Source: Caldilineaceae bacterium
GTDB taxonomy: Bacteria; Chloroflexota; Anaerolineae; Caldilineales; Caldilineaceae
Assembly: GCA_022824025.1 (NCBI GenBank)
Contig: JAJEBF010000045.1
Coordinates: forward strand, 62,001-126,000
Length of the DNA: 64,000 nt
Reading direction: 5' to 3'
Position 1 is the stretch's first letter. Every line of letters starts with the position of its first letter. Positions 56,488 to 64,000 of this stretch are shown here, one piece after another. A program made the translations under genes and the position numbers. The notes below the pieces were generated by a model. The model saw nothing but the letters and a program-made list of their open reading frames with translations. It made no database searches and was not told where the DNA came from.

Positions 56488-57384
56488 CTAAACCTCCAGA
56501 ATGTCCGGGCCATCCACCGTGGCCGCCTTAGCCAGCGCGCCCGATTCCGCCAGCTCGCCCATCGTCGCGAACGAGGCCCCCGGTTTCCGCCCGACATGCT
56601 CTGAAACCGCGTCGATCATCCTGAAAGTGTGCTCATAGTCGTCCGCGATTCCGTGCGTATGCATCAGCATGATGACTACCGGGCTGTGTTCGCCGATGCG
56701 GTCCAGGTCCTGCCGGGCCAGTTCGACAAAGTCATCGCTGCGTTCACCGGAGCCCCGCCACGTGTATTCGTTGAGGATCGGCGCCTCCACAATGTCCTCA
56801 TACCATCGAAACGGCTGATAGGGAATGTTGTCGACCCACTTCTGTGACAAATCACCCCCGTTGTGCGGCAAATGTCCGTAGCCGCTGCCGCTGATATACA
56901 TGCAAGTATGATAGCCGATCCCTACCTCTCTCAGGGCACCAAACATCGCCTTGGAGATGGCCCCGCAAGGAGCCCTGAAAACCGTCGGCTCAACCCCCAG
57001 GTCCATGGCGAATATCTCCATCCCCTCCTCGATTCGGGCGCGCAGATTGTCTACAGTATAACGCGGCAACAACTCCTCGCGCCGGTCGTCAAAGCTGGTT
57101 TGCAAAGAAGGCAGTATGGAGACTGCCGGCCAGGCCGGCGGCCCAAATTCGTAACAGTCAGCATGGGTCAGACCGTGCAGTTGGAGGTCGTGCCCAGCGT
57201 CGCGCGCCGCGATCAGCGCCTCTTTCCACTCCGACGTCATCGCCTTTCCCCCGGCCTTGGGCACGGTAAACCACGTCGAACCCAACCCCCGCGAGCTGAA
57301 GAACGCCGTCGCCCTCCTCAAGGACTCCACCATCGCGCTGCCGCCCGACCCTGCGTCGTCAATGCTCCAGCAGTATACCGTCAT
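56488..57384 (-). CDS. Polysaccharide deacetylase (NodB-fold) paralog 1
   Basis: NodB-homology protein of 298 aa, likely removing acyl groups from a sugar or amide. Motif 1 is S-I-D9-D10-A-G (catalytic base and metal Asp), motif 2 is H70-G-L-T-H74 (both metal His), motif 3 is FRAPCGA and the late His motif is MLMHTHGIADD. ATG 57384 follows GGAGGGAAAAG. It is in tandem with paralog 2 (same length, high similarity) and next to the sulfatase-like gene. All canonical metal ligands are present, so this copy should be active. Confidence 0.85.
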   Translation of the reverse strand: MTVYCWSIDDAGSGGSAMVESLRRATAFFSSRGLGSTWFTVPKAGGKAMTSEWKEALIAARDAGHDLQLHGLTHADCYEFGPPAWPAVSILPSLQTSFDDRREELLPRYTVDNLRARIEEGMEIFAMDLGVEPTVFRAPCGAISKAMFGALREVGIGYHTCMYISGSGYGHLPHNGGDLSQKWVDNIPYQPFRWYEDIVEAPILNEYTWRGSGERSDDFVELARQDLDRIGEHSPVVIMLMHTHGIADDYEHTFRMIDAVSEHVGRKPGASFATMGELAESGALAKAATVDGPDILEV

Positions 57385-57511
57385 CTCTTTTCCCTCCACC
57401 CCCATGTGATCCAGCTGACCGAAATTGACTCTTCCTTGCAAGACCCTTCACAAGTGCCGCGGGGAATAAGTCGGCGCAATGTTCCTTCTCCGCTCCGCTG
57501 CCAGACTGCCG

Positions 57512-58408
57512 TTAAACCGCAAGAATGTCAGGCCCACTTACCGTGGCTGCCTCCGCCAGCGCGCCAGAAGCCGCCAGCTCCCCCAATGTCGCAAAACGCG
57601 CGCCCGGCTTGCGGCCCACATGCTCCGCAACGGCGTCGATCATCCTGAACGTGTGTTCGTAATCGTCAGCGTTCCCGTGCGTGTGCATGGCCAAGACAAC
57701 AACCGGGCTGTCCTCGCTGACGCGGTCCAGGTCCTGACGGGCCAACTCGACAATCTCGTCGCCGCGTTGCCCGGCTCCGTGCCACGTATACTCATTCAGA
57801 ATCGGAACCTCGACAACGTCCGCATACCAGCGAAACGGTCGGCGAAGGATATTGCCTTCCCACCCCCGCGCAATCTCCGCCCCTTCTTCCAGGAAATGGG
57901 CGTATCCGCTTGCGCTGATGAACGTTCCAGAGTGGTAGCCGAAGCCGGCCTCTCGCATCGCCCCAAACATCGGCTTGGAGATTGCGCCGCACGGCGCCCG
58001 GAAAACTGCTGGCTCCACCCCGTGATCCTGCGCGAAAATCTCCCTGCCCTCCTCAAGCCGCAGACGCAGTTTCTCAACCGTATAACGCTGCATCAACTCC
58101 TCGCTGCGTTCGTCGAACTCCGCCTGGAGCGTGGGCAGCAGGGCCGTCGCCGGCCAGGCTGGCGGCCCAAACTCATAGCAGTCGGAATGTGTCAGGCCCA
58201 GCATCTGCAGATCGTGGCCCGCCCCCAGCGCCGCATTCAGCGCCTCTTTCCATTCAGCCGTCATCGCCTCGCCCCACGGCTTGGGAACGGCATACACAGT
58301 CGAACGCAGGCCCCGTGCCCCGAAGTATTCTGTTGTCCTCCTCAGAGACGCCACCAATACGCTGTCGCCCCAGCCGGCGTCCTCTATCGTCCACACGAAT
58401 GCCGTCAA
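57512..58408 (-). CDS. Polysaccharide deacetylase (NodB-fold) paralog 2, altered active site
   Basis: Same length (298 aa) and architecture as paralog 1, with long identical stretches (CYEFGPPAWPA, FRAPCGAISK, LARQDLDR, DDYEHTFRMIDAV). Two key positions differ: the first Asp of motif 1 is Glu (I-E9-D10) and the first metal His is Leu (L70-G-L-T-H74). The later His motif (AMHTHGNADD) is kept. This suggests altered or lost deacetylase activity, or a partner role to paralog 1. The region just upstream contains the remnant of an ABC permease 3' end. Confidence 0.83.
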   Translation of the reverse strand: MTAFVWTIEDAGWGDSVLVASLRRTTEYFGARGLRSTVYAVPKPWGEAMTAEWKEALNAALGAGHDLQMLGLTHSDCYEFGPPAWPATALLPTLQAEFDERSEELMQRYTVEKLRLRLEEGREIFAQDHGVEPAVFRAPCGAISKPMFGAMREAGFGYHSGTFISASGYAHFLEEGAEIARGWEGNILRRPFRWYADVVEVPILNEYTWHGAGQRGDEIVELARQDLDRVSEDSPVVVLAMHTHGNADDYEHTFRMIDAVAEHVGRKPGARFATLGELAASGALAEAATVSGPDILAV

Positions 58409-58448
58409 AGTTATTCTCCCCGCAGGCGCCGTCTGGTCAAGTAACAGG

Positions 58449-58528
58449 TAGGGCGACCACTCCTGTTCAAATGGTTAACCCTTCACCGCCCCAACCGTCA
58501 GACCTTCCAGAAAATACCTCTGCAGGAA
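58449..58528. repeat. 80-bp direct repeat, copy A (58449-58528 with 60543-60622)
   Basis: Gapless alignment with 60543-60622: 71 of 80 bases match, and the 53-bp core (58476-58528 with 60570-60622) is identical. The core is the 3' end of a MalG-type permease gene. The first 8 bases (TAGGGCGA) also match, and the 19 bases between match at only 10. The copies are in the same orientation and bound about 2.0 kb. Confidence 0.85.
58475..58528 (-). pseudogene. Remnant of MalG-type ABC permease (C-terminal 17 codons)
   Basis: On the minus strand it encodes FLQRYFLEGLTVGAVKG and a TAA stop, identical in DNA to the end of the intact permease gene at 60569-61429 (which stops with TAG). Upstream of the Phe codon the reading no longer resembles a permease. 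So either a second permease gene was lost here, or a segment was inserted at the permease end and duplicated it. Confidence 0.75.
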
Positions 58529-59111
58529 TAAGGATCCTGTTAAGCATCCCCTTTTGCCGCATCGGTATGGGGCGAGAAAAACTGTGTCTACATCCTCATT
58601 CGTCGCCCTACCCTCCTTGCTCCTTAGCGGTCAACCCCAAGCGGCTGCCCATGTGCGGGGCATCGGCCCCGCAACCGCCCCGGAAACTATGCCCGCCCAC
58701 AGGCGCGCCGAACTCCCCACATGAAAATCTGCCTCTACTACAGATGTGCTTTGACTGACACAGACAGCTCTAAACGCTGGCGCCCGTTTGAATCCACAGC
58801 TTACAGAACCCGCTTAAAAGTACTTCTCACCACTGACCATCGCGAATTCTACCCGCTGACAAATGGACCTCGTCGCCCTCAGTCTGAACAGCGACTCCCT
58901 GGGGCAAAGCGCCACCGGTCCGCAAACGGCTGCGCACCTGCGCACATTGAACGCGGTGCGCCTCTGTCTTCTCCGCGCCTTGCCGCATCCCGCCGCAGGC
59001 AGGAATAAGCTTAAATTGGCCCCATATTTCAACTCAAGGTCCGAATCGTCCCACAAGCGTTACGGCTTTGCTGACCGCCCTCCCCAAACGTCAACGGCGC
59101 CATTCTTGGCG
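58529..59111. other. 580-bp gene-free part of the islet
   Basis: Between the permease remnant and the first unrecognised gene of the islet. Open frames exist but none has a start signal or recognisable product. No insertion-sequence ends, integrase or tRNA fragment seen. Confidence 0.45.
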
Positions 59112-59576
59112 CTACTGGACTGTTCTCACGGGACTGCTTTCGGGGACAACAAGCGGCAACAGAGGCGCCTGATTACCGTCCTGCATACTCTGGATCTCCT
59201 CGGCCAGCTCGACAAAGCTGTCATAGCTACCGAAACGATACGTTGTTGGTTCGTTCTCAGAGATCAGGTTCCACTCGTTTCTTCCGATCCCCGTTCGATA
59301 GGTTACAGGGCCAGTCGCCGACACCACTTCCACGATTCCCAGTCTGATAAAGTCGAAGACCAATTCAGCGACAAGCTCAGGAGTAATGCTCTTGCCATGG
59401 TAGTCGCCCAACCTCTCTGCGATCTGAATGTGCGTTGCCCGAAATTCCCTACCGCCGCACGCGTCTGCCATTTCTGCCATTGACGTAAGCGGCATCTGAT
59501 AATGCGTGTACATCAAATCGATCAAACCGCTGCCTTTTAGCTCCTTGGACACACTCTTGATACTGTGTTTAGCCAT
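59112..59576 (-). CDS. Unrecognised protein A of the islet (154 aa)
   Basis: I do not recognise a family. A strong ribosome-binding site (GAGGAGAAGAGG) precedes the ATG. The protein is soluble, with helical segments (SITPELVAELVFDFIRLGIV) followed by a strand-rich part (EVVSATGPVTYRTG), a pattern compatible with a winged-helix-like domain, though this is weak. An acidic region (SYDSFVELAEEIQSMQDG) is near the C-terminus. It lies 21 bp after protein B on the same strand, so they form an operon. Base composition is visibly less GC-rich than the neighbours. Confidence 0.65.
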   Translation of the reverse strand: MAKHSIKSVSKELKGSGLIDLMYTHYQMPLTSMAEMADACGGREFRATHIQIAERLGDYHGKSITPELVAELVFDFIRLGIVEVVSATGPVTYRTGIGRNEWNLISENEPTTYRFGSYDSFVELAEEIQSMQDGNQAPLLPLVVPESSPVRTVQ

Positions 59577-59597
59577 CCTCTTCTCCTCACGGCCATG

Positions 59598-60047
59598 TTA
59601 CGCCTGTTGACTTCTTGCCGGACTGCTTCGGTACTCCAAGACCAGCGCATAGACCGAGAATCTCAGAATGACACTGAACCAGTTCCATGTCAGTTCGACT
59701 ATCTGCTCACGCTCCGCATCGGGAATTGAATCTATATCAAGAATCTGACGGAATCTCCGTTCTGTATGCTCAAAACTGTCAATGAACCCTTCCAGAATGG
59801 CAAAAGCATCCACTCGGAATACTCGACTCTTCGCCAAGAACCCATCGACGGACATCCATAGCTCATCACATCCCCTATGCCAGCGCCTGAATGGTTGCGA
59901 GCCTTCGTCAAAGTGCCGGGATGCCTCGTCTTTCAGAAGTTCGATCGCTGCGGTTGCATTATCAATCTGTTCTTCCGCGGTTGAAAATCTGAGTTGCTTA
60001 AAAAGAGAAAAACTGGATGCATCTAGGCTATCTTCATGGCTGGGCAA
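59598..60047 (-). CDS. Unrecognised protein B of the islet (149 aa)
   Basis: No family recognised. The start is TTG at 60047, preceded by a GAGG ribosome-binding site; no ATG is in frame near it. The protein is largely helical and acidic (AEEQIDNATAAIELLKDEAS, GFIDSFEHTERRFRQILDID), with Trp residues in a WHRGCDELWMSVDGF block and a hydrophobic helix WNWFSVILRFSVYALVL near the C-terminus that might insert in a membrane. It is the first gene of the two-gene islet operon. Composition is less GC-rich than the flanking transporter genes, suggesting horizontal origin. Confidence 0.6.
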   Translation of the reverse strand: MPSHEDSLDASSFSLFKQLRFSTAEEQIDNATAAIELLKDEASRHFDEGSQPFRRWHRGCDELWMSVDGFLAKSRVFRVDAFAILEGFIDSFEHTERRFRQILDIDSIPDAEREQIVELTWNWFSVILRFSVYALVLEYRSSPARSQQA

Positions 60048-60568
60048 TTTTATGACCTCTGCGGGATGCTTGTCGAGCCCCTATCCACCCCGTGAAGCAG
60101 TCTGGTTACGGGGTAGTTTAGAGAAGCGGGCTGCAGGACTCATCAGGAACCGCCAGTGTCAGCCTCAAACTAGCTGCTGTTTTGCCACGCCCCGCTATCG
60201 TTGTCTCGCGGCAATCACGCACCCCTGCCACTCCCTCGTATGTTCGCCTCGCTCACTTTGCGTCCCCTCCTTCCCACTTTGGTGGCGCCCCCCCTTGTGG
60301 GCGCCCCTCCCCACCGAAACGCTCTGCTAATGAGAGATGCCAGCAAGTCACTCGCACACCCTCCACTCCTCCCTCTGCGCTCAAGGCGGCACCTCACCCC
60401 CGACCCATAACTCTACAGTTCCCCTCGCCGCGCTCCCACATATCAAGGTCCATCCTTTCTCAGAACGTCACACGCCTATAGCTGAAATTCAGACTCGACA
60501 CTAAATGCAAGAACTCTTGGTCTCCGACTGAATTCACATTGATAGGGCGAGCATTCTGGTTCACGCTC
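60048..60568. other. 520-bp gene-free part of the islet
   Basis: Between protein B and the intact permease. It contains the second interspersed palindrome (60284-60305) and otherwise C-rich, low-complexity sequence. No gene is supported. The stretch nearest the permease (60543-60568) belongs to the direct repeat. Confidence 0.45.
60284..60305. repeat. Small interspersed palindrome, copy 2
   Basis: GGCGCCC-N8-GGGCGCC, a perfect 7-bp inverted repeat. Its right half, CTTGTGGGCGCCC, matches copy 1 at 36033-36046 (CTTGTGAGCGCCC) in 12 of 13 bases and the same orientation. Confidence 0.5.
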
Positions 60569-60622
60569 CTAACCCTTCACCGCCCCAACCGTCAGACCTT
60601 CCAGAAAATACCTCTGCAGGAA
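60543..60622. repeat. 80-bp direct repeat, copy B (60543-60622 with 58449-58528)
   Basis: Copy that belongs to the intact MalG-type permease: it covers 26 bp beyond the gene, the stop codon and its last 17 codons. Bases 60570-60622 are identical to 58476-58528. Confidence 0.85.
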
Positions 60623-61429
60623 AAGGAAAACGATCAACAAGGGAACCACACTCAAAAATGCGGCTGCGGACGTAATCCCGTAGTTGACCTGGAACTCGCT
60701 GCGCAGAAGCGCCAGTCCCAGGGGAAGCGTGTAGAGATCCTTGTCGTTAAGCACCACAAGGGGCCAGACCAGGTTGTTCCATTGCGAGGTAAAGACCACG
60801 ATCGACAATGTCGCCAGGGCCGGCGCCGACAGCGGCAGAATGATCCGCCAGAAAACGCCAAAGTCGGTGCAACCGTCGATGCGGGCGGCGTGCTCAAGCT
60901 CCTCAGGAATCGTCTGCATGAACTGCCGCAACAGGAAGACGCCCAGCACGTTCGCCAGTGCCGGAATGATGAGCCCGCCGTAGGAATTCAGAAGACCCAA
61001 CCAATTGGTGATGAGAAACGCAGGGATCAGCAGAAGGGCGCCAGGAATCATGATCGTGGCCAGCATCAGTCCAAACAGGACGTCCCGACCCCAGAACTCC
61101 TTCTTGGCAAAGGCGTAAGCCGCCAGCGCATCAATGAGCACCGTTCCGACTGTAACCAGAACCGCGACCAGAATCGTGTTGAAGAACCACAGGCTGAAAG
61201 GCAACTCATTCAGTATGTATGTGTAATTGTCCCAAACCAGCTGCTCCGGGATGATCTGAGGTGGGATCGATATGAGCGTGTAGGTCTCTTTGAAAGAGGA
61301 GGAGAAGATGTAGAGGTAGGGGCCCAACATGATAATGACCAGCATCGCCAGGAGAACATACACGACGACTGCCTGGGGCAGCAGACGCAGCCTCCTTCGC
61401 CAATCTCTCCTGAGGTCAATTTGGGTCAT
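60569..61429 (-). CDS. Carbohydrate ABC permease, MalG/UgpE type (system 2)
   Basis: Membrane permease of 286 aa. The EAA loop is PEELEHAARIDGCTDFGVFW with LPLSAPALATLSIV, and the C-terminus is FLQRYFLEGLTVGAVKG. It is intact, but its last 17 codons are duplicated 2.1 kb downstream beyond the islet. It pairs with the MalF-type gene 54 bp upstream. The start MTQIDLRRDWRRRLRLL has no alternative nearby. Confidence 0.93.
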   Translation of the reverse strand: MTQIDLRRDWRRRLRLLPQAVVVYVLLAMLVIIMLGPYLYIFSSSFKETYTLISIPPQIIPEQLVWDNYTYILNELPFSLWFFNTILVAVLVTVGTVLIDALAAYAFAKKEFWGRDVLFGLMLATIMIPGALLLIPAFLITNWLGLLNSYGGLIIPALANVLGVFLLRQFMQTIPEELEHAARIDGCTDFGVFWRIILPLSAPALATLSIVVFTSQWNNLVWPLVVLNDKDLYTLPLGLALLRSEFQVNYGITSAAAFLSVVPLLIVFLFLQRYFLEGLTVGAVKG

Positions 61430-61483
61430 TGAAACTATCCTTCACTGTTACGCTTCCCTGATTCCCGATTCCCGGCTGTGAGA

Positions 61484-62410
61484 TCATCGTTCACCCAGTA
61501 CCTTCATCTGCACATATGAGATCGGCATGATGATGAGCAGCAGCACCACCCCCATCGCCGCAGCCATGCCTACCTGCCCGTAGCGAAACGCATGGTTGTA
61601 GATGTACCACACGATCGTCGCCGTCGCGTGAACTGGACCGCCGTTCGTTAGCACAAACACGGTGTCAAACAGCTGGAACGCCCATATCGTACCCATCACC
61701 ACTGAGAACAGGATTACCGGCCGCATCAGAGGAATGGTCACGCGCGTCGCCACTTGCCAGGCATTGGCGCCATCGATCCGGGCCGCCTCGTGCAGCTCTT
61801 CCGGAACACCCAACATTGCCGCCAAAAAGAGGATGATGTGAAAGCCTATCCCCCTCCACCACTCCACAAGCAGAATCCCGTAGAGCGCCCACTCAGGATC
61901 GGACAGCCAGTAGATCTCCGGCACGCCCACCAGACCAAGTAGATAGGTCAATACGCCATATCGAGGCGCCAGAATGTAACTCCAGATCTGAGCCGTGGCC
62001 GCAGCCGAAGCCAGCAGGGGGAAGAAAACAACCGCACGATAGAAGTCCTTGAACCGGACCAGTTTGTTCCCGATCAGAAAGGCCAGCGCCAGCGCGGTTA
62101 CCACCGCGATTGGCACCACCGATACCGTATACTGAAGCGAGTTCAGAAACACCTTGAGCGTTATGGCGTCGGTCGTGAGGCTCACGTAGTTCTGAACCCC
62201 AACGAATGGCTTGACCTGGTCGACTAAGTCTCCCCGCAACAGGGAAAGCCAGAGAGCCCAGAAAAAGGGACCAATGTTGAACAGGGCAAATAGAACCATG
62301 AAAGGCAGGATAAAGGCATACGCGTTCAGGTTGCGCCGCACGGCGGCGCGTCCCCAAAAGGGCCCCCCTCGCTCTCGTGTCGTCTGTAAGGCTTCTGAGC
62401 TCGTAGTCAT
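61484..62410 (-). CDS. Carbohydrate ABC permease, MalF/UgpA type (system 2)
   Basis: Membrane permease of 308 aa. The first helix (AYAFILPFMVLFALFNIGPF), the EAA loop (PEELHEAARIDGANAWQVAT then VTIPLMRPVILF) and TNGGPVHATATIVWYIYNHA are typical of the MalF type. ATG 62410 is preferred over 62512 because the upstream 34 residues look non-conserved and GGGAAC precedes it, but the ribosome-binding site is only fair. The gap to the binding-protein stop holds only a weak hairpin, unlike the other three binding-protein genes. Confidence 0.9.
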   Translation of the reverse strand: MTTSSEALQTTRERGGPFWGRAAVRRNLNAYAFILPFMVLFALFNIGPFFWALWLSLLRGDLVDQVKPFVGVQNYVSLTTDAITLKVFLNSLQYTVSVVPIAVVTALALAFLIGNKLVRFKDFYRAVVFFPLLASAAATAQIWSYILAPRYGVLTYLLGLVGVPEIYWLSDPEWALYGILLVEWWRGIGFHIILFLAAMLGVPEELHEAARIDGANAWQVATRVTIPLMRPVILFSVVMGTIWAFQLFDTVFVLTNGGPVHATATIVWYIYNHAFRYGQVGMAAAMGVVLLLIIMPISYVQMKVLGER

Positions 62411-62516
62411 CTCGATACCGTTCCCTGGCCAAGCGATTCGGGCCGTGAAAGGAGGAATGTTCCAGGTACGGGCGACCGGGCCATAAGAGCGCGGCCGCCC
62501 GCACTCGCTCAATCGT

Positions 62517-63857
62517 CTATGCCCCTTCTTCCTCCCTCAGCATATCGTTGACCTGTTCCACCATATCCTCAACCGCCTCTTCAACCGTGCGCTGTCCAAG
62601 AACGAACGACTCGATTGACGTGCCTTCGATATCCCAGAACTTGAAGATCCAGCCGCGGTACGGCCAGAAGAATGTGTATTCAAGTGTCGTCTGGGCCACA
62701 GTCAAAACTTCGTCGTCAGGATAGAAGTTCACGTGCGGCGACACGCTCATGAACCCCAGGCACCCGATCCAGGATGTCAGCAGATCTGGCGAAACAAGCG
62801 TCTCGACCACCGTCCATGATTCGTCAGGATAGGCCGTATTCGCCGCGATCGCCAGCATGCCAACACCGCCGTAGCAGGCGCGCCCGCGTGCTCCCTCCGC
62901 GGGGCCCGTGGCCATGCGCGCCGCGCCCAGTCGGAAGTCAGGCTTCTCGCTGCGCACCGAATTGGCGAAGGTATTCTGGGCCGTGATTATCCCCACCTTG
63001 TTGTCGCGGAAATAACCGCCGACACCCGGCTCCTGCCCCGAAATCGCGCCCGGCATCGCCACTTCATGGTCGTGGAATAGCGAATTGAAGAAGTGCCAGC
63101 CTTCGTACGCCTCCTCGGAATTGACGATGCACTCGGTCAGGTCGTCGTTGAACCAGTGCCCGCCAAACCGCCGCGGCCACTGTCCGTTTTCGTGCCACCC
63201 TTTCGGATGTGTGGCAAAACCGTAGACATCTTCATCCAGAGCCGTGATATCCTGCGCGATGCTCACAAAATCATCAACTGTTTCCGGCGGCGTATCCGGG
63301 TCGTGCCCCGCCTGTTCGAACAGGTCCTTGTTCCAGAACAGGTTTGAACCGCCGATAATCCACGGAAGCGAGTAGGTCGTCCCATCGTACGTGCCCGGCC
63401 CCCACGCTCGTTCGTAGAAAAAGCTGCGCTCGAACCCACTGGATGCGATCATTTCATCCAGCGGCATGATATGGCCCGCATTCACAAAGCGCGGGAACGA
63501 CTCCGTCTGGTAGCTCACGTCAGGCCCTTGATCCGCGGCAAACGCGGCCGTGAACTTCTCGTTGTACTGGCCCCAGGGAACCTCGCTGAAATCAACGCTG
63601 ATCTCAGGGTGCATCTCCTCAAGCACGTCTAGGGTCGGCTGGGCGCATAGTTTTGTTTCGTCACCTGCCGCCTTGTGCGGCCCTTTCCACATCGTCAACG
63701 TAACGACCTCCATCGCCGGCGCATCGCCTCCCTCGCCCGTCGCGCCGGGAACGGCCGGCGCGCACGCCGCCATGCCCGCCCCCAGCGTGGCCGCTCCAGC
63801 CACTGTCGCTGTTCGAACCAGAAAACTGCGTCTGGACAACCTGGTACCGGTAGCCAT
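62517..63857 (-). CDS. Sugar ABC solute-binding lipoprotein, Tat-exported (system 2)
   Basis: Family 1 sugar-binding protein of 446 aa. Twin-arginine signal SRRSFLVRTA (residues 8-17) with lipobox GMAAC (Cys32). The mature part shows AAFAADQGPDVSYQTESF, NLFWNKDLFEQAGHDPDTPP and DNKVGIITAQNTF. Aromatic-rich segments (GWHENGQWPRRFGGHWF) could line the sugar site. It is first of the genes of system 2; a regulator or ATPase is not seen before the window edge. Confidence 0.93.
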   Translation of the reverse strand: MATGTRLSRRSFLVRTATVAGAATLGAGMAACAPAVPGATGEGGDAPAMEVVTLTMWKGPHKAAGDETKLCAQPTLDVLEEMHPEISVDFSEVPWGQYNEKFTAAFAADQGPDVSYQTESFPRFVNAGHIMPLDEMIASSGFERSFFYERAWGPGTYDGTTYSLPWIIGGSNLFWNKDLFEQAGHDPDTPPETVDDFVSIAQDITALDEDVYGFATHPKGWHENGQWPRRFGGHWFNDDLTECIVNSEEAYEGWHFFNSLFHDHEVAMPGAISGQEPGVGGYFRDNKVGIITAQNTFANSVRSEKPDFRLGAARMATGPAEGARGRACYGGVGMLAIAANTAYPDESWTVVETLVSPDLLTSWIGCLGFMSVSPHVNFYPDDEVLTVAQTTLEYTFFWPYRGWIFKFWDIEGTSIESFVLGQRTVEEAVEDMVEQVNDMLREEEGA

Positions 63858-63958
63858 GGTATCTCCTCCTTGGCTTCTGTGTGGGCAGCGCTGGCGCGCC
63901 GCCTCTTCCGATCTAACGTTGCAACGTGAAAAAACCTGGTTGGCAATACAAATGCAGA

Positions 63959-64000
63959 CTAACCGAGCTCTTCCAGTACCTTATTCAACCCTTCGACCGT
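63959..64000 (-). CDS. 3' end of a minus-strand gene running past the window
   Basis: The minus strand encodes TVEGLNKVLEELG and a TAG stop at 63959-63961. The helical, acidic C-terminus and the position 101 bp before the system 2 binding-protein start suggest the end of a real gene, but 13 codons are too few to name it. Confidence 0.4.
   Translation of the reverse strand, partial: TVEGLNKVLEELG

Follow-up and report, generated by a model that had tools for sequence, protein, structure and literature searches.

Within a 64-kb stretch of DNA from an uncultivated member of the Caldilineaceae (hereafter the window, 64,000 nucleotides), the 3' end of a gene for a MalG-type ABC permease occurs twice, in the same orientation and about 2 kb apart. 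Does this arrangement record an insertion at a gene end that was restored in the process, or a second permease gene that was lost by recombination and left its end behind? A preliminary description of the sequence had offered both models, and here we weigh them against related genomes and against several further routes by which such an islet might form.

The repeat and the DNA between its copies

The direct repeat pairs positions 58449-58528 with 60543-60622 at 88% identity over 80 bp, and BLAST extends it to 86 bp (left copy, 58449-58534; right copy, 60543-60627, as delimited by direct-repeat comparison and empty-site alignments). Its exact core (58476-58528 and 60570-60622, 53 of 53 bases, same strand) is the sole exact direct repeat of at least 24 bp within 8 kb in the window, and the chance expectation for exact pairs of this length is ~1e-22. 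Encoded in the core are the permease's 17 C-terminal residues, followed by the TA of the stop codon, whose final base is not shared (TAA in the left copy, TAG in the right). Both the 53-bp identity and the similarity beyond it to 80 bp had been described earlier and hold, as do the 17 shared residues, but the core does not include a full stop codon as had been supposed. From the stop codon the repeat continues for 27 bp into non-coding DNA. As previously noted, an intact gene is attached to the right copy alone: this is the target permease (60569-61429, minus strand, 286 aa, PF00528), while the left core, also minus strand, is a displaced permease end followed by the 27 bp downstream, with no gene attached. 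We looked in the repeat for a symmetric or inverted core of the kind a recombinase would bind and found none that was significant, shuffled sequences matching the best candidate 69% of the time. The left flank is occupied by a polysaccharide-deacetylase-like gene (deacetylase 2, 57512-58408, minus strand), the second of a tandem pair (56488-58408) with 72% DNA identity over 300 bp.

Between deacetylase 2 and the permease lies an insert of ~2.1 kb, in which only two genes, A and B, are recognised. Each is a gene of its own on the minus strand, A (149 aa, 59598-60047) lying directly upstream of B (154 aa, 59112-59576) and being preceded by a promoter-like site at 60076-60047 (minus strand) that is a consensus match only. 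The earlier account of about 1 kb of gene-free sequence and two unrecognised, less GC-rich genes proved accurate: stretches of ~0.58 kb and 0.5 kb are without recognisable genes, and G+C is 0.49-0.54 around the islet genes versus 0.58-0.63 to the left and mostly 0.53-0.62 to the right. The left non-coding part (58529-58997) contains open frames without a Pfam match and a copy of a dispersed repeat family, L (58864-58996); the right one (60097-60542) holds a copy of a second family, R (~60097-60365). Both families are dispersed intergenic chromosomal repeats present in these genomes, family R having at least 11 matches in the genome under study (G000), 18 in G009 and 25 in G008. No structured RNA was found in the islet by Rfam up to E 1.

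No integrase was found in the islet with Pfam, NCBIfam, PADLOC or PHROGs or on checking the open frames, in agreement with the preliminary description, and none of five open frames in the non-coding parts has a Pfam match that would mark an integrase remnant. Genes for recombination or transfer are likewise absent. Elsewhere in G000, PF00589 matches only two tyrosine recombinases (on contigs C58 and C28), both Xer-like by eye, and no serine recombinase was found in G000 or G009. A DDE transposon was considered and rejected, because the duplication is ~80 bp instead of short and the islet ends carry no terminal inverted repeats; a search of 57000-64000 returned one inverted pair, far away. A phage or plasmid origin was also rejected: gene A is absent from phage and plasmid records, gene B is absent from plasmid records, and A, B and the repeat core are all missing from the viral contigs searched. 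Nor was a related integrative and conjugative or mobilizable element (ICE or IME) found in 17 genomes of the genus or in those viral contigs.

Filled and empty sites in the genus

The comparison that decides between the two initial models is with close relatives at the same locus. One genome of the same genus at ~92% identity (G009) carries the same islet with both repeats, so that the duplicated permease end accompanies the islet there as well. We rejected an assembly artefact because these two metagenome-assembled genomes (MAGs) agree in structure. Five others (G008, G001, G014, G005 and G006) have a single copy of the repeat, with the permease joined directly to deacetylase 2, which is the empty site that an insertion predicts. 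G008 is 92-93% identical on the permease side, and the remaining four belong to a more distant group at ~78%; among them, G005 is empty at this locus although it has the A-B module elsewhere in its genome. The five empty single-copy sites polarise the event and indicate that the islet was inserted.

The idea that a second permease formerly stood here and was lost by recombination draws on the deacetylases, which are tandem paralogues (72% over 300 bp), so that duplication has occurred at the locus. However, all five empty-site relatives, including the ~78% group, have one permease and no second transporter, and the repeat does not end with the coding sequence but takes in 27 bp of non-coding DNA beyond it. 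We regard this loss as barely credible; the deletion model is unsupported by any relative examined, and the insertion model is the one that the comparison bears out.

A second islet in G000 is of the same build. In a scan for similar repeat-bounded inserts over stretches totalling ~0.79 Mb of this genome, we found one at tRNA-His (C57:187330-190090, that is, L125:330-3090), bounded by a repeat of ~101-107 bp, 47 bp of it exact. Its insert of ~2.5 kb has a Ser/Thr kinase gene and ends in an insertion sequence (IS) fragment truncated exactly at the repeat, and G008 has an empty single-copy site there with a continuous flank. Each of the two islets found in the ~0.79 Mb adjoins the 3' end of a gene that remains intact, and the shared build supports a general process. 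At the same tRNA-His in G009 (contig C31, L147:6020-8501), the downstream DNA is unlike that of G000 and G008 and includes an ORF of 446 aa; the tRNA gene is possibly an insertion hotspot.

Exchange across the locus and the two-gene cargo

The islet is not uniform in age. The block at 58993-60112, which contains A and B and has dispersed repeats at both bounds, differs by ~0.5% between G000 and G009 when 59255-59319 is left out, compared with ~10% in the islet to its left and ~10% or more to its right. Synonymous divergence is 0.01 for gene A (G000-G009) versus 0.19 for the permease (G000-G008). Near identity of the A-B block amid an islet diverged by ~10% indicates a recent exchange of the pair within an islet that is itself older. 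The stretch left out lies within B and holds 16 of the block's 21 differences between the two genomes, which suggests replacement from a different allele.

The flanks, too, are a mosaic of exchanged segments. On the deacetylase 2 side G000 and G009 pair clearly (25 informative sites versus 4 and 3). On the permease side this pairing is absent and G000, G009 and G008 are about equidistant (92-93%; 17, 26 and 31 informative sites), and over 60500-61700 G008 is nearest to G000. In G000 the non-coding part (27 bases) of the right repeat is closest to G008, from which it differs at 2 positions, versus 10 for the left copy, as expected if this tract came from an empty-site donor. The left 53-bp core shows 1 difference between G000 and G009 where ~5 are expected (P ~0.03). 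Near constancy of a displaced end on which no selection is expected would be explained by gene conversion from the coding copy, and we take this as modest evidence that conversion maintains the left core.

As an addition to the insertion, we considered whether the ancestor shared by G000, G009 and G008 already carried the islet, which recombination between the repeats later removed precisely from G008. The near equidistance of the three genomes on the permease side (17, 26 and 31 sites) would fit such a loss, but beside deacetylase 2 the G000-G009 pairing is clear (25 sites versus 4 and 3), and the outgroup is empty as well; we think it unlikely.

Neither A nor B matches a family in Pfam, NCBIfam or PADLOC, and their PHROGs matches are weak and to groups of unknown function. 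Their dN/dS of ~0.20 each relative to the G005 homologues indicates that both are under purifying selection. AlphaFold predicts a five-helix bundle for A (pLDDT 77), for which a PDB structure search gave no match with E < 0.001, and a winged-helix-like fold for B (pLDDT 69), for which the structure search returned weak winged-helix matches only. Homologues are confined to this genus among 298 sampled genomes of the class, and the nearest named loci carrying gene A are all from Caldilineaceae MAGs. The pair is followed by an AAA_21 ATPase gene in G005, G010 has a fragment of B within a region of HEPN, DUF4276, AAA and DUF499 genes, and in G007 gene A is flanked by transposase-like genes. These contexts fit accessory cargo, and A-B may serve in defence or addiction, B perhaps being the partner that binds DNA. 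G000 also has a distant relative of B on contig C43 (L027:1153-1854; 32% over ~77 residues), downstream of which a short ORF resembles a HigB-type toxin by eye.

How the islet may have arisen

Duplication of a gene's terminal sequence without damage to the gene, as in the ~80 bp repeated here, is the classic outcome of integration at 3' ends, and site-specific integration at the permease end is plausible. In elements mobilised by tyrosine recombinases the repeat contains the gene 3' end and the gene stays intact (PMC5704250), and integrase-less derivatives of 1.2-13 kb, known as CIMEs, have been reported at the 3' ends of genes (PMC7563491). Our best reading, to which we give about an even chance, is an integrase-less, CIME-like remnant of such an insertion. 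About 2.1 kb entered at the permease 3' end, either in the lineage shared by G000 and G009 or in just one of the two and was then passed to the other. This insertion duplicated ~80 bp of the target, so that the permease end stayed intact and a second copy came to lie beside deacetylase 2. The most likely route would be integration of a circular element with the permease-end sequence as its attachment site, catalysed by a recombinase since lost; both the circular intermediate and the lost enzyme are what we infer. What remains would be two attachment-like repeats around the A-B cargo and eroded non-coding DNA.

The islet shares with CIMEs (PMC5704250, PMC7563491) a small cargo without recombination or transfer genes, an intact gene 3' end, and flanking direct repeats of attL/attR type, present as one copy in empty sites. 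It departs from them in the length of the repeat (80-86 bp versus the usual 8-60 bp) and in that no related ICE or IME and no recombinase was found. With integrative elements at the 3' ends of tRNA and protein genes (PMC5704250) it shares the regenerated target end, the displaced copy on the far side and the single-copy empty site; unlike them, it has neither an integrase of its own, the mark of a tyrosine-recombinase element, nor an identifiable recombination core. Insertions with long genic direct repeats in Arabidopsis (PMC2869330) similarly place passenger genes between direct repeats homologous to the target, but the present case is bacterial, lies at a gene 3' end and has no donor site that we could find.

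The missing integrase candidate and symmetric core would equally suit a process free of recombinases, in which a break at the permease end, staggered or doubly nicked, was repaired; filling-in of both strands would have produced the 80-bp duplication, and a fragment from elsewhere in the chromosome, made up of A and B and the dispersed repeats beside them, would have been captured between the copies. Dispersed intergenic repeats of the same genomes lie in the non-coding parts of the insert on both sides of A-B, and the IS truncated exactly at the repeat in the tRNA-His islet fits arbitrary filler DNA. Against this, both cases in ~0.79 Mb of G000 lie at intact gene 3' ends, which random breaks do not favour, although selection could likewise retain harmless insertions only and two cases are few. 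We consider break repair somewhat unlikely but the most serious competitor. Alternatively, a circle already bearing the 80-bp end of the permease gene might have integrated by a homologous single crossover; recombination between the direct repeats at this locus in another strain could, for instance, have released such a circle. The patchwork of exchanged segments at the locus is in line with this, and in Arabidopsis a circle mechanism driven by homology, with genic repeats on the flanks, has been put forward (PMC2869330). However, this route accounts for spread from strain to strain and presupposes some prior event that joined the islet to a permease end, of which no further copy was found in the genus; we judge it distinctly unlikely. 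Very doubtful, in our estimate, is the broader proposal that Caldilineaceae gain small arbitrary segments at gene 3' ends with target duplications of 80-105 bp and no element-encoded recombinase, both islets being products of that process.

Overall, this is a small islet of largely familiar type. The insertion is cleanly polarised by filled and empty sites within one genus, and G000 has another islet built in the same way; together they permit a test of the ways in which small gene cassettes reach the chromosomes of uncultured Chloroflexota. The locus also points to the lineage-restricted A-B pair, on which selection acts and which continues to be exchanged.
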